From Pyruvatibacter sp. HU-CL02332 (GTDB taxonomy: Bacteria; Pseudomonadota; Alphaproteobacteria; CGMCC-115125), in the NCBI RefSeq assembly GCF_040362765.1, contig NZ_BAABWK010000002.1:1054001-1118000 (forward strand): DNA of 64,000 bases, written 5' to 3'. The first letter of the stretch is position 1. The number at the start of each line of letters is the position of its first letter. Positions 25,732-32,919 of this stretch are shown here, piece after piece. A program made the position numbers and the translations under genes. The notes beneath the pieces were generated by a model. It saw only the letters and a program-made list of their open reading frames with translations. It did not search any database and had not been told where the DNA came from.

Positions 25732-26343
25732 CTATCTGAAGCCGGGGACGCCCTCGGCCTTTCGCCATCCTGCGTGGTCCGCACCGCTGTCTACATCCGA
25801 CAATTCACTGAGCATACCAACACGGACTGATCCAAAATTAGCGAGCGTCTGGTCGCGTTCGCGACCGCTTGACCATTCCACCCCCTCAAATGGCATGAGC
25901 ACTTTCGGCATGCGTTTTTGGCCAATGAGCCAATATCCTCCGTCTACGGATGGGCCCATGACGGCATCGTTGGTGCCCAGCGCCTTGAACGCCTGGGCGA
26001 TGTGACGGGCGGAGATGTCGGGGATATCGCTGCCGATGATCACCACAGGCCCTTTGGGAGCCGTATCAAAGACGCGCTGCATACGGGCTCCAAGATCCCC
26101 TTCGCCTTGAGGCACGACTGCATCTGCGTCTTGCAGCCAGCGTTGATCTGGAAGCGCCTGCACATCAGGGCTTGCTGCCACGACCGTTTGCCAGCGCGGG
26201 TCGGCTGCAAGCCTACGGATCAGACGGGCCAGCGCCACACGGTAGAAGCGCGTGGCTTCAACCAGGCCAACATCTTTCGCCAGCCGTGTTTTTACGCGGC
26301 CCATGGCTGGGGCTTTGGCCATGATAGCGAGGGTATTTTGCAT
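25732..26343 (-). CDS. TIGR04282 family (DUF2064) glycosyltransferase-like protein
   Basis: 203 residues from the ATG at 26343. A nucleotide-diphosphosugar transferase-like fold: TLAIMAKAPAMGRVKTRLA at the N-terminus, GDLGARMQRVFDTA, VVIIGSDIPDISARHI and VMGPSVDGGYWLIGQKR. The family is named after arsenosugar gene clusters but is much wider spread. It is usually adjacent to a TIGR04283 glycosyltransferase; here that partner lies at 26825-27526, with an unrelated gene between them. No arsM or arsS is visible in the window. Confidence 0.82.
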   Translation of the reverse strand: MQNTLAIMAKAPAMGRVKTRLAKDVGLVEATRFYRVALARLIRRLAADPRWQTVVAASPDVQALPDQRWLQDADAVVPQGEGDLGARMQRVFDTAPKGPVVIIGSDIPDISARHIAQAFKALGTNDAVMGPSVDGGYWLIGQKRMPKVLMPFEGVEWSSGRERDQTLANFGSVRVGMLSELSDVDSGADHAGWRKAEGVPGFR

Positions 26344-26448
26344 GAATAGACCAACCAGACCTGCTTTTTTGATGCTTCTTGCAATACCGTACCAATACAC
26401 AGTCAACACGCATCCATGCTTGGGATCACAAACCGGAAAATTAGCGAG

Positions 26449-26824: not shown

Positions 26825-27526
26825 CTACCGCTTCATATAAACGCGGGCGATGCGGTCCGGGTTTACACCAAGATAATAGAGCATCAGGCACAGGGCGTTT
26901 CTGGATGAGCGGGCGATGTAGCCGTCATTCAAATAGCGTTCCGGGCTGGTGACGGCAGGGGCCCGCAAAAAGACGAGCCGTCGGCGACCGATGCGTCGAA
27001 CGAAATCCACGTCTTCCATGATCTGCAACGGGCGATAGCCGCCGAGCTTGTCATACAGGCGGCGCGAGACCAGCAGGCCCTGATCGCCATAGGGCAGACC
27101 AAAGAGCCAGCAGCGCCATGACACGATGCCCTCCAGCATGCGCGCCCAGAACGAAAAGTCATCCAGCGCGAATTTGAAAACGGCTGCGAAATCGAGGCCT
27201 TTTTCGCCACGCTTCTCCAGCCGCTCAAGCAGTGTTTCCACTTCCTCTTCCCAGCCGGGTTGCAGCACCGTGTCGGCGTGCAGGAACAACAGCCACTCAC
27301 CACGCGCGGCCTGCGCGCCGGCAGCCAGCTGTGTGCCCCGGCCTTTAGGTGCGCTCACAAATTTTGCGCCGGATGTTTCCGCAATGCGTTCCGTGCCGTC
27401 GGTTGAGCCGCCGTCAACGATGACGACGTCCTTGATCAGCCCGCGGACGGTCGGGCGGATCAGCGCCGCCAACACCCGGGTGAGGGACTTTTCAGCGTTC
27501 AAAGTTGGAATCACGACGCTCAGCAT
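26825..27526 (-). CDS. TIGR04283 family glycosyltransferase (GT2)
   Basis: 233 residues from the ATG at 27526. GT-A fold: MLSVVIPTLNAEKSLTRVL, VVIVDGGSTDGTERIA with the DGGSTDGT nucleotide motif, GRGTQLAAGAQAARGEWLLF and LHADTVLQPGW with the metal-binding acidic residue. The middle contains FGLPYGDQGLLVSR and FVRRIGRRRLVF, typical of the family. Partner of the TIGR04282 protein at 25732-26343. Acceptor unknown. The frame extends to 27571, but the added residues are outside the family. Confidence 0.85.
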   Translation of the reverse strand: MLSVVIPTLNAEKSLTRVLAALIRPTVRGLIKDVVIVDGGSTDGTERIAETSGAKFVSAPKGRGTQLAAGAQAARGEWLLFLHADTVLQPGWEEEVETLLERLEKRGEKGLDFAAVFKFALDDFSFWARMLEGIVSWRCWLFGLPYGDQGLLVSRRLYDKLGGYRPLQIMEDVDFVRRIGRRRLVFLRAPAVTSPERYLNDGYIARSSRNALCLMLYYLGVNPDRIARVYMKR

Positions 27527-27586
27527 GCGGCGGACTTTAGCGCGTAATTGCTGCAACTGCGAAGGGAGCATGGCGTTAACCTAAAT

Positions 27587-27601
27587 GTTCTTGTCTTGTT
27601 C
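27587..27601 (+). promoter_or_regulatory. LexA (SOS) box GTTC-N7-GTTC
   Basis: GTTC (27587-27590), seven bases TTGTCTT, GTTC (27598-27601). This is an exact match to the direct-repeat LexA site established for alphaproteobacteria. It covers the -35 region of the promoter that would read the radical SAM gene at 27627. Confidence 0.75.
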
Positions 27602-27620
27602 TTTTTAATGTGATTATATT
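27591..27620 (+). promoter_or_regulatory. Candidate promoter of the radical SAM gene
   Basis: TTGTCT (27591-27596), 18-nt spacer, TATATT (27615-27620). The -35 lies inside the LexA box. The -10 ends only 6 nt before the ATG at 27627, so the mRNA would begin at or next to that codon. Confidence 0.45.
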
Positions 27621-27626
27621 CCTCTC

Positions 27627-28967
27627 ATGAACAGAACAGCGCACAGAAAGATTGTTGAGATTGGCTCGGGACTTGGCTCGGGACAGGGGGCCAGGGCGGC
27701 AGACCCGGCTCCAAATCCAGCCAACGAGACAGCGCGCGCTGCGACCATGCCCGTGTTTCCCCTGACCGCCCCCCAATCCGGTCAGCCACAGACACGCGCT
27801 TTGATGCCCGGTGATGCGGACGGGGAGATACGCCCTGCCCCAGGCCCCGTCTCGCGCCCCGATTTCGGGCCGGGCAGCAGTCTTCCTTCCCCCAAAACGG
27901 GACGGCTGCATGAAGCACGCAAAGGTCGCGGCGCGCGTTCCAATCGCTCTGGACGCTATGAGCACCGGGCCGCGGAGGCATTTGACGATGGATGGGACAT
28001 CGCAGAGGACGAAAAGCCTTTGCGGACTCACGTCAGCGACGAAGCGGCCCGGACCATCATCACGCGCAACCAGTCGCCGGACATTTCCTTCGACCGCTCG
28101 ATCAACCCCTATCGGGGGTGTGAGCATGGCTGTGTCTACTGCTTTGCCCGGCCGACCCACGCCTATATGGGGCTGTCGGCGGGCCTCGACTTTGAAAGCA
28201 AGCTGTTTGCCAAGCCAAATGCCGCCAAGCTGCTGCGGCGTGAATTGTCCAAACCCGGCTACGAGCCGCGGACGATTGCCATCGGCACCAATACGGATCC
28301 CTATCAGCCGATTGAGCGCGAGCGCCGGATCACGCGGCAGGTTCTTGAAGTGTTGGCCGAGCACAAGCATCCGGTGGGCATCGTCACCAAGTCCGCCATG
28401 GTCACGCGCGATATCGATATATTGAGTGAGATGGCACGGGACGGGCTTGTGAAGGTCGCGCTCTCGGTCACGACGCTGGACGGCAAGCTGGCGCGGGCGA
28501 TGGAGCCGCGTGCTTCTACGCCGGGGCGGCGGCTTGATGCCATTCGTCAACTATCCGAAGCGGGAATTCCAACGGGCGTCATGGTTGCGCCGGTCATTCC
28601 GGCCCTCAACGACCACGAGATTGAGGCCATTCTCAAGGCTGTCGCCCGCATGGGCGCGCGGGAGGCGGGCTATGTGATGTTGCGGCTGCCGCTGGAGATC
28701 AAGGATCTGTTTGCCGAGTGGCTGGATGATGTCACCCCCGATCGTGCCAAGCGGGTGATGAAGATCGTCCGTGATATGCGCGGCGGCAAGGACTATGACG
28801 CGGAGTGGGGCAAGCGCATGACCGGTGGTGGTCCGTACGCCTGGACCATTTCACGCCGCTTTGCGCTCGCAATGGAACGCCACGGCCTATCACGGCAGCG
28901 TCTGCCGCTGCGCACGGATCTGTTTGAGGCCCCCAATGCAGGGCCCAAGCAGCTGGCGCTTCTCTAG
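27627..28967 (+). CDS. PA0069-family radical SAM protein (SplB-like)
   Basis: 446 residues. The radical SAM cluster motif is NPYRGCEHGCVYCFARPTH (CxxxCxxC), preceded by ITRNQSPDISFDRSI and followed by FESKLFAKPNA, TIAIGTNTDPYQPIE and VKVALSVTTLDGKLARAME. The family is related to spore photoproduct lyase; its substrate is not established. The conserved region starts at GRGARSNRSGRYE near residue 93; the ~90 residues before it are Pro/Ala-rich, so ATGs at 27747 or 27804 could be the true start. A LexA box upstream points to induction by DNA damage. Confidence 0.88.
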   Translation: MNRTAHRKIVEIGSGLGSGQGARAADPAPNPANETARAATMPVFPLTAPQSGQPQTRALMPGDADGEIRPAPGPVSRPDFGPGSSLPSPKTGRLHEARKGRGARSNRSGRYEHRAAEAFDDGWDIAEDEKPLRTHVSDEAARTIITRNQSPDISFDRSINPYRGCEHGCVYCFARPTHAYMGLSAGLDFESKLFAKPNAAKLLRRELSKPGYEPRTIAIGTNTDPYQPIERERRITRQVLEVLAEHKHPVGIVTKSAMVTRDIDILSEMARDGLVKVALSVTTLDGKLARAMEPRASTPGRRLDAIRQLSEAGIPTGVMVAPVIPALNDHEIEAILKAVARMGAREAGYVMLRLPLEIKDLFAEWLDDVTPDRAKRVMKIVRDMRGGKDYDAEWGKRMTGGGPYAWTISRRFALAMERHGLSRQRLPLRTDLFEAPNAGPKQLALL

Positions 28968-29022
28968 GTTACATCTCCTCGTGGTTTGACACAGGGCGGC
29001 TTCCGCAGGCTTTGTGGTGCAC

Positions 29023-29895
29023 ATGATTTGCCGACTGACATTTTCCGCATTGATTTTGCTCTTGTCCGGCTGGAGCGCATTCGCCTCCGGCATGGGTGAT
29101 GACTGGCCTACGACACGAATTGTGCCTGCGGGCTCTGTGGTTATGGGCGCGGACAATCAGGATGTCGCGGCAAGCAGTGATGAATTCCCCTCGCGCCAGG
29201 TTGATATCAACTCCGACCTCGCCTTTGGCACAACGCCGGTTACGCGTGGACAGTTTGCCGCCTTCCTCCGCGCGACAGATCACGAAAGTTCTGGTGGCTG
29301 CTGGACCCTGACGCCTGATGGCTGGGCCATGGACAACACAGCCAACTGGCAAGCGCCGGGATTTCCGCAAACCGACCAACATCCGGTGACATGCGTGTCA
29401 CGGGACGACGCCATTGCCTATCTGGCGTGGCTGACGGCGACTACGGGCCAAGTTTATCGGTTGCCAACGGAGGCAGAGTGGGTTCGTGCGGCAGGGCCGT
29501 CCGCTCTCAACCGGCCATCTGAAGCTCTGTGCGCGCATGGCAACGTCAACGACCTGACTGCCAAGAACAAGGTCGCGAAAGTCGCGGAGCATTGTGACGA
29601 CGGTTTTTTGCACACGTCGCCGGTGGCAAGCTTTGCCGCGAACGAGTTCGGCCTTTTCGACATGGTCGGCAATGTATGGGAGTGGGTGGCTGACTGTCAC
29701 AATGGTGGCTACGCGGATTTGCCGATGGACGGCGCAGCACAGACAGACGAGACCTGCGAGGCCCACGCCCTGCGCGGCCATTCATGGACTGACCCACCGG
29801 GTCCCGTCCGTCTTGGGACCCGCTACGCTCTGCCGCCGGACGCGCGACAATCCATAGTGGGATTCAGGGTGGTGCGGGAAGTGCCTCATGACTAA
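29023..29895 (+). CDS. Exported SUMF1/formylglycine-enzyme-fold protein
   Basis: About 290 residues. MICRLTFSALILLLSGWSAF is a signal peptide, chosen with the ATG at 29023 (GTGs at 29014 and 29017 are alternatives). The SUMF1 fold follows: PAGSVVMGADNQD, FGTTPVTRGQFAAFLRAT, DQHPVTCVSRDDAIAYLAWL, YRLPTEAEWVRAAG, FDMVGNVWEWVADCH and the C-terminal VGFRVVRE. The late Cys pair of true formylglycine-generating enzymes is missing (GHSWTD here), so it probably has a binding or other role. Its end overlaps rnhB by 8 nt. Confidence 0.82.
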   Translation: MICRLTFSALILLLSGWSAFASGMGDDWPTTRIVPAGSVVMGADNQDVAASSDEFPSRQVDINSDLAFGTTPVTRGQFAAFLRATDHESSGGCWTLTPDGWAMDNTANWQAPGFPQTDQHPVTCVSRDDAIAYLAWLTATTGQVYRLPTEAEWVRAAGPSALNRPSEALCAHGNVNDLTAKNKVAKVAEHCDDGFLHTSPVASFAANEFGLFDMVGNVWEWVADCHNGGYADLPMDGAAQTDETCEAHALRGHSWTDPPGPVRLGTRYALPPDARQSIVGFRVVREVPHD

Positions 29896-30505
29896 GAGCG
29901 TCACCGGACCTGATTTCTCTCTTGAAGATGCGTGCGGCATATCTCCCGTGTGCGGCATTGATGAAGCAGGACGCGGCCCATGGGCGGGGCCGGTGGTTGC
30001 ATCTGCCGTCATCCTTCCCACATCTGGTGTTCCGGAGGGATTGAATGACTCAAAGAAACTCACTGCTCAAAGACGCAATGACCTTGCTGGCCACATACGC
30101 GCTTCATCCCTCGTGGGAGTGGGCGTTGCGGATCCGCAGGAAATTGATGAGCTGAACATTCGCCAGGCCACATTTCTGGCAATGGCACGGGCGGTTGCAG
30201 ACCTCCCATCCCCACCCTCATTTGCGCTGATTGACGGGCGCGATGCGCCCGACATTGGATGCCCGGCTCAGGCTGTCATCAAGGGAGACGCGCGATCACT
30301 GTCCATTGCGGCCGCCTCCATCATCGCAAAGACGTTTCGGGACGCCATTATGGTGGCAGCTGAGGCGGAATTTCCCGGCTACGGCTTTGCCCGCCACAAG
30401 GGATATGGCACCGCGGCCCACCAGACGGCGCTTAACAAGCTGGGGATAACCCCACTTCACAGAAAAAGTTTTGCCCCGGTTCGCGCCCGCATGGCGCTAG
30501 ATGTT

Positions 30506-30517
<12 letters not shown>
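29888..30517 (+). CDS. rnhB: Ribonuclease HII
   Basis: Removes ribonucleotides from RNA-DNA hybrids and single misincorporated ribonucleotides. 209 residues. The active site starts CGIDEAGRGPWAGPVV (Asp25, Glu26), then LNDSKKLTAQRR, FALIDGRDAPD and SIAAASIIAKTFRD with the later acidic residues, and RHKGYGTAAHQTAL. The start overlaps the SUMF1-like gene by 8 nt. It lies directly upstream of ccrM, an order conserved in alphaproteobacteria. Confidence 0.94.

Positions 30518-32919
<2,402 letters not shown>

Follow-up and report, generated by a model that had tools for sequence, protein, structure and literature searches.

The gene for a PA0069-family radical SAM protein in Pyruvatibacter sp. HU-CL02332 contains in its promoter region an exact LexA-type site, which probably is a functional LexA operator holding under repression a radical-SAM enzyme for the repair of some DNA lesion that is not the spore photoproduct. 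The gene is located in a window of 64,000 nucleotides, the whole stretch of DNA that was analysed. The predicted operator, GTTCTTGTCTTGTTC, matches GTTC-N7-GTTC exactly and occupies positions 27587-27601 of the plus strand, just where the sequence-only reading had reported such a site at the promoter of a radical SAM gene. It ends 25 nt before the ATG at 27627 of a 446-residue open reading frame (27627-28967, plus strand). The motif was found once in the window, against 1.63 occurrences expected from shuffles of the window, and 63 times in all of the organism's own DNA, where the control pattern, read backwards, occurs 88 times; 34 of the 63 sites are intragenic, as judged from genes called by a simple predictor. 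Motif counts, being at or below chance in both window and genome, were discarded as evidence for an operator. The site is taken to be more than a chance match because the box is conserved at the PA0069-family radical SAM gene.

Within the window's class, the Alphaproteobacteria, an exact GTTC-N7-GTTC box was found upstream of the gene in 125 of 145 loci (within 450 nt of the homology start, on either strand), and on the gene's own strand in 122, whereas control spacers of 3-6 and 8-12 nt gave 1-5 loci each and the reversed pattern CTTGN7CTTG three. The 145 loci comprise all 144 above-cut-off matches in 143 of the 289 sampled class genomes and one extra member of the genus; they include the gene of the window itself and three from other members of its genus. 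Two loci that lie at a contig end, L151 and L206, have no usable upstream sequence and are counted among the 20 box-less ones. The exact box is absent in 18 of the 143 loci with usable upstream sequence, and 11 of these 18 carry on the gene's strand an AT-rich form with one mismatch (0-2 of 18 for six other spacers). Loci that have no operator count against the preferred reading. Where a genome carries the gene twice (L163 and L181), each copy has a box. The same box was observed at homologues from Sinorhizobium (including S. meliloti, L249), Agrobacterium, Pelagibacterium and Methylopila, in all eight named alphaproteobacterial loci of a scan confined to the best 80 of at least 593 matches, and in all eight additional loci of the class obtained from a search of phylum genomes. 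Alignment of 130 class sites gave the consensus tGTTCTTG(A/T)TTTGTTCt.

Homologues outside the class carry other operators. Matches above the cut-off in 249 sampled genomes of the same phylum gave 32 loci from other proteobacterial classes, which appear to be mostly Gammaproteobacteria (betas included, following GTDB usage). CTGTN8ACAG was found upstream in 23 of the 32 (0-1 for other spacers) and is absent in nine. It is present at the PA0069-family gene of the gammaproteobacterium Aeromonas caviae and in all three named Burkholderia-group loci of the scan of the best 80 of at least 593 matches. In Pseudomonas aeruginosa, PA0069 is presumably a LexA target. The same scan, made with one Nonomuraea sequence and not an even sample, contained 67 actinobacterial loci among its best 80 of at least 593 matches; 41 of these 67, that of Nonomuraea (L247) included, carry GAACN4GTTC (0-1 for other spacers), and the exact form is absent in 26. 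With one mismatch allowed, the number rises to 62 of the 67, again among the best 80 of at least 593 matches, versus 2-10 for other spacers. The operator scan found no operator upstream of the Arthrobacter homologue (L250), and neither proteobacterial operator was found at L323 and L328, two further loci among the best 80 of at least 593 matches. One locus of another proteobacterial class that has no CTGTN8ACAG (L210) contains TTAGTAATAATACTA upstream, which presumably resembles a Xanthomonas-type LexA site and is perhaps a fourth operator type at a PA0069-family gene, to judge from its sequence. A single superfamily would stand under three LexA operators, namely GTTC-N7-GTTC, CTGT-N8-ACAG and GAAC-N4-GTTC. 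The SOS control predicted by the sequence-only reading is strongly supported by the conservation of the box, by the recurrence of such control under these three operator types and by a compatible promoter.

Which gene does the box serve? It lies only 15 nt from the start of a divergent gene for a TIGR04283-type glycosyltransferase (26825-27571, minus strand; 207.6 bits, cut-off 182), and is therefore upstream of that gene as well. A second glycosyltransferase-like gene, of the TIGR04282 type, is present at 25732-26409 on the minus strand; both models are of the 'arsenosugar biosynthesis' type. Of 65 loci checked, 26 have a homologue of the divergent gene nearby. The box is kept in 20 of 21 loci with a glycosyltransferase in the fetched stretch and in 28 of 31 in which none was found there; since it is kept either way, the radical SAM gene is most likely the one it serves. 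That the box controls the divergent gene, or is a chance match of which about 1.6 are expected per window, is hardly credible in view of these 28 loci, of the favoured distance between box and start on the radical SAM side, and of a conservation far above that of the control spacers.

A promoter compatible with LexA control was predicted by a consensus scan, with a -35 element TTGTCT (27591-27596, plus strand) within the spacer of the LexA box and a -10 element TATATT (27615-27620, plus strand). Together (TTGTCT-18-TATATT, 27591-27620) they match 9 of 12 consensus positions. The scan carries little weight by itself, because three promoter-like sites were found in 4 kb versus 1.5 in shuffles. 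Across the 130 class sites, T, T and G occur at the -35 box positions with frequencies of 0.82, 0.83 and 0.74, and three further positions counted from the box start, 27 (T), 28 (A) and 32 (T), are conserved in a -10-like manner. The conservation of this -10 region is weak, which counts against the preferred reading; overall, the aligned sequences are compatible with a promoter in register with the LexA box. No Rfam model matched between 27000 and 29500.

The position of the start codon relative to the box was examined as well. Among loci with any of the three box types, the distance from the box to the chosen start peaks at 23-27 nt, and in 72 of the 130 class loci with a box the start lies 22-28 nt past it. 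The remaining distances are partly mis-called, because the rule takes the first start codon past the box, at times a TTG in or beside it. In all four genus members the chosen start lies 25 nt past the box. In the three genus members read in the plus orientation, homology begins 334, 310 and 301 nt from the box; the differences are all divisible by three, in support of translation from 27627. Four-mers resembling a Shine-Dalgarno sequence were found in the stretch from box to start of 11 of 85 loci (at a distance of 16-29 nt), which is no excess over shuffled versions of these stretches (mean 9.75, range 2-19). Transcription may start about 7 nt past the -10 element, at or beside the ATG, and yield a leaderless transcript; such a start is plausible because Shine-Dalgarno-like four-mers do not exceed the shuffles and because of the observed box-to-start distances.

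The genome of Pyruvatibacter sp. HU-CL02332 encodes LexA (178.7 bits, cut-off 110.95) and has boxes of this type at known SOS genes. When its 63 sites were scored with a weight matrix derived from 126 sites, none of them from the organism's own genus, the window site ranked third, after those of uvrA/ssb (first) and a DnaE-type polymerase (second); lexA (7th), a PcrA/UvrD-like helicase (8th), YifB/ComM (12th) and recA (13th) followed. With a conserved operator in its promoter and a genome of this kind around it, the radical SAM gene has the marks of a member of the alphaproteobacterial LexA regulon. Two candidate assignments made for other genes were dropped: the gene at L051 is not dnaE2, being a DnaE-type polymerase III alpha subunit above the NF004226 cut-off, and that of the gene adjoining the site at L003 to imuA was not supported by NCBIfam or Pfam searches. 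The fifth-best LexA-type site of the genome (G000:C1:464917-464931; positions 1501-1515 of L006) lies upstream of a gene (1541-2716) for a C5-cytosine DNA methyltransferase (PF00145, 205.1 bits), which is possibly under SOS control. A protein with a DNA_photolyase domain is also encoded (G000:C2:242177-242665, L340; PF00875, 190.3 bits).

The protein encoded at 27627-28967 had been assigned to the PA0069 family from sequence, and this is borne out by 564.6 bits to NF033668 (rSAM_PA0069, cut-off 360), with the whole model (1-348 of 348) aligned to residues 99-446; the score to PF04055 is 68.6 bits. Residues 1-98, outside the NF033668 model, are Pro/Gly/Ala-rich by eye. The cluster motif CxxxCxxC (residues 165-172) is formed by Cys165, Cys169 and Cys172, each a cysteine in 186 of 189 aligned sequences. 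The protein scores 235.3 bits to the Rv2578c family (NF038135), below the cut-off of 430, and 20.2 bits (E 2.3e-4) to the spore photoproduct lyase (SPL) model TIGR04070, for which the cut-off is 400. Relatives of this protein were also seen in other settings. IMG/VR contains six loci, one of which (L331, on a 20 kb contig that is classed as viral and could be host DNA) encodes a protein 61% identical to that of the window. Seven actinobacterial loci among the best 80 of at least 593 matches (L304, L307 and L309-L313) have open frames of 631-877 residues by the start rule, as would be expected for the Rv2578c type that contains an intein (NF038136). Distant relatives annotated as 'radical SAM mobile pair protein B' (for example H29-H31 and H33-H49) are often carried by plasmids, in Bacteroides and Parabacteroides as well as some Bacillota.

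The AlphaFold2 model of the protein has a confident core, with 183 residues at a pLDDT of at least 90, and the first 131 residues are mostly below 50. A structure search with this predicted model listed six SPL entries on top (Z 17.4-18.1 over 256-269 residues), by which the model has an SPL-type fold; the next match was lipoyl synthase (Z 15.2 over 217 residues). The likeness of the modelled fold to SPL does not reveal the substrate, since Z values of 13-15 are reached by lipoyl synthase, NifB and PflA as well. A single-protein sequence search of the PDB gave nothing up to E 1. Profile searches found SPL at E 1.1 (A1) and 0.025 (A3) and NifB, with better values, at 0.0066 and 0.0078; because NifB outscores SPL in the profiles, the relation to SPL rests on structure more than on sequence. 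A weak segment, EPGT...R...AG...AP, is common to SPL and the window protein. Alignment to an SPL fragment with hhalign covered 60-66 columns with a probability of 49-62, and Cys140 of SPL lay outside it. Two Bacillota records, searched for a true SPL, contained nothing above the cut-off.

SPL, whose source organism is a spore former, returns hydrogen via Cys140 as the hydrogen donor, and its PDB entries include C140S and C140A mutants (FEAACTSD in the wild type, FEAASTSD and FEAAATSD in the mutants). The window protein contains three cysteines in total, all of them in the cluster motif, and a fourth is absent. By the TSD/NTD motif, Cys140 would correspond to Thr221; this mapping is by motif only, because hhalign missed Cys140. 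By plain spacing (43 residues from Cys97 to Cys140 in SPL), the cysteine would be expected at residue 214-215. The window protein has no hydrogen-donor cysteine on either placing: residue 214 is Pro. Beyond the cluster, the columns richest in cysteine among the 189 sequences are residue 214 (76 sequences, out of 186 at that column) and residue 416 (64), and no cysteine occurs at residues 215-224, residue 221 included (0 of 186). With some doubt, the SPL cysteine thus appears not to be conserved in the family, a subset of which could have one in the residue 214 column. The argument from the missing cysteine is accordingly weaker for the family than for the window protein, and the cysteine at residue 214 counts against the preferred reading. 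The suggested relationship to spore photoproduct lyase therefore survives in the fold and the weak common segment, and fails for the family model TIGR04070 and the catalytic cysteine.

These data also bear on whether the protein is a true SPL-type photolyase, acting on spore-photoproduct-type or other thymine photoproducts by the SPL mechanism. SPL is the closest solved fold to the predicted model, the EPGT...R...AG...AP segment is common to both, and a cysteine is found in 76 of 186 sequences at about the plain-spacing position; an SOS gene is moreover named splB or photolyase in the parts of PMC3323433 covered here. Such an enzyme is nonetheless quite improbable, given the TIGR04070 score of 20.2 bits against a cut-off of 400, the confinement of the window protein's cysteines to the cluster, the counts in the other columns (at most 76 of 189, and none at residue 221, whose mapping is our own), and the photolyase-domain protein that the genome already has. 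The spore photoproduct, besides, arises in dry spore DNA, which counts against this alternative.

Under the preferred reading, of an operator-controlled enzyme for a different lesion, LexA would bind GTTC-N7-GTTC over the -35 region and block RNA polymerase. On damaged DNA, RecA filaments would bring about LexA cleavage, which would open the promoter, and the radical SAM protein would be made from a transcript with probably almost no leader. With a [4Fe-4S] cluster and S-adenosylmethionine, the enzyme would generate a 5'-deoxyadenosyl radical, which would attack a damaged base or nucleotide of the DNA by hydrogen abstraction and so reverse the lesion directly, as SPL does for its own, different lesion. 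Because the SPL cysteine is missing, the hydrogen would have to be returned by a route other than that of SPL. Binding by LexA and induction in Pyruvatibacter sp. HU-CL02332, like the DNA substrate and the lesion reversal, are what we infer, and the DNA-repair role to which the sequence-only reading had pointed is supported at that level.

The protein might instead be SOS-induced and serve the damage response as a modifier of RNA, of another protein or of a metabolite. Not every SOS gene acts on DNA, which counts against the preferred reading; enzymes with a radical SAM fold use many different substrates, and RlmN, TYW1, RimO, MiaB, viperin and NifB are all among the structures listed for the model. 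We regard this as unlikely, since SPL stands about 2 Z units above all other listed families and a LexA operator is common to the homologues in three groups.

The genes downstream of the radical SAM gene are on the same strand. The first encodes an FGE-sulfatase-like (formylglycine-generating-enzyme-like) protein (29014-29895, plus strand; PF03781, 177.8 bits) and is possibly co-transcribed with it. No terminator-like site was reported on the plus strand between 28967 and 29014, but one is located within the FGE-like gene (29581-29598). Of 65 loci, three have an FGE-like gene nearby; these are the window's own locus and others of its genus. It is overlapped by 8 nt by rnhB, the gene for ribonuclease HII (29888-30517, plus strand; NF000595, 240.6 bits, cut-off 167), which is possibly part of the SOS transcript and co-induced. 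A gene for a CcrM-like adenine DNA methyltransferase follows (30638-31810, plus strand; NF050803, 638.2 bits, below the cut-off of 830); it is preceded by a promoter-like site at 30580-30608 and likely has its own promoter. The order radical SAM gene, rnhB, ccrM (27627-31810 in the window) recurs in many class loci, and ccrM homology was detected in 23 of 65, mostly with 1.5 kb of downstream sequence.

The position of rnhB was examined in two sets of class loci. The first consisted of L062-L113 (52 loci, mostly the best-scoring), eight named alphaproteobacterial loci and one Sinorhizobium locus, 60 of these 61 offering over 1 kb of downstream sequence (for the most part up to 1.5 kb); the second consisted of 20 lower-scoring loci with about 3 kb each, picked by hand. 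In the first set 36 of the 60 loci have rnhB downstream on the same strand, in the second 8 of the 20, together 44 of 80; on the opposite strand it was found in none. The estimated gap is at most 100 nt in 15 of the 60, and no LexA box was found between the two genes in the 36 rnhB-bearing loci. Outside the class, rnhB was not found in the four loci L320, L322, L323 and L328. These arrangements invite a more specific form of the preferred reading, in which the radical SAM protein works with RNase HII, in one SOS operon, on ribonucleotides or other errors of SOS polymerases. The constant strand, the short gaps and the lack of an intervening box are in its favour. It is very improbable all the same: no downstream rnhB was detected in the remaining 36 of the 80 class loci, gaps of about 500-1100 nt occur, that of the window included, where the terminator-like site at 29581-29598 intervenes, and the gene order may simply be ancestral because ccrM follows too. 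Among the papers that a full-text search listed for rnhB, LexA and SOS, none concerns a radical SAM-rnhB arrangement by its title.

A broader proposal is offered tentatively, as a real possibility: the PA0069/Rv2578c group may form a separate, SOS-dedicated class of radical-SAM DNA-repair enzymes, under at least three LexA operator types, for a lesion that is not the spore photoproduct, with no conserved cysteine as hydrogen donor and with RNase HII co-induced in many alphaproteobacteria. A widespread repair-like enzyme is tied to the DNA-damage response across groups with three different LexA operators, which makes the question of its lesion directly testable in model bacteria. The analysis argues against copying the label 'spore photolyase' onto the PA0069 family.

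The regulatory link itself is already known: radical SAM genes of the 'splB' type have been described in print as SOS-controlled. In the passages of PMC3323433 (2012) covered here, 'splB' is predicted to be SOS-regulated in alpha- and betaproteobacteria, with emphasis on two different operators; the trait is described as not seen in gammaproteobacteria and is termed photoreactivation, or photolyase. This 'splB' is very probably the window's gene family. According to the corresponding passages of PMC9380542 (2022), the Streptomyces venezuelae radical SAM gene vnz_31145 is a LexA ChIP target, is upregulated 19.97-fold with mitomycin C (RNA-seq), and is likened to enzymes repairing thymine cross-links. 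Excerpts from three further papers describe SplB (COG1533) as SOS-regulated in several species, adding Bacteroidetes (PMC8565304), a radical SAM protein in the core SOS regulon of Gram-positives and Balneolaeota, with Mycobacterium tuberculosis among the species (PMC7739468), and SplB-like proteins tied to SOS gene neighbourhoods (PMC3765255). The passages covered from these five papers contain neither the missing SPL cysteine nor gammaproteobacterial operators nor the link to rnhB. The statement that a mycobacterial relative has been listed as damage-inducible was not confirmed, as a full-text search found no literature pairing Rv2578c with LexA. For Caulobacter, the terms radical SAM, splB and photolyase are absent from the main texts of PMC12700426 and PMC13384398, and PMC1839093 mentions neither radical SAM nor spore. 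LexA binding or induction of an alphaproteobacterial orthologue was not found in the literature passages covered.

How does the window's system compare with those already known? Structurally, it is closest to SPL (PDB 4fhc and the mutants), with which it shares the radical SAM fold (Z 17.4-18.1), the CxxxCxxC motif and the EPGT...R...AP segment; it differs in that Cys140 has no conserved counterpart in the window's family and that TIGR04070 stays far below its cut-off. To the Rv2578c family (NF038135) it is linked by the 235.3 bits and by the GAACN4GTTC of actinobacterial homologues among the best 80 of at least 593 matches, although the window protein scores below the cut-off of 430 and shares about 31-38% identity with its homologues from Nonomuraea and Arthrobacter. 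The SplB (COG1533) of PMC8565304 and the unnamed radical SAM protein of PMC7739468 are likewise under LexA in the passages covered, with other operators, and are likened to the window gene by description. By description, too, vnz_31145 is similar, but its operator is of the actinobacterial type, listed in the part of PMC9380542 covered as TCGACCGTTCGCTC. A further regulatory parallel is the 'splB' of PMC3323433, for which the available passages give LexA boxes before an SPL-like gene and an alphaproteobacterial operator, GTTC-N7-GTTC, as in the window; unlike in that account, the gammaproteobacterium Aeromonas caviae was found here to carry CTGTN8ACAG at its homologue, and the window protein to be without the SPL cysteine.
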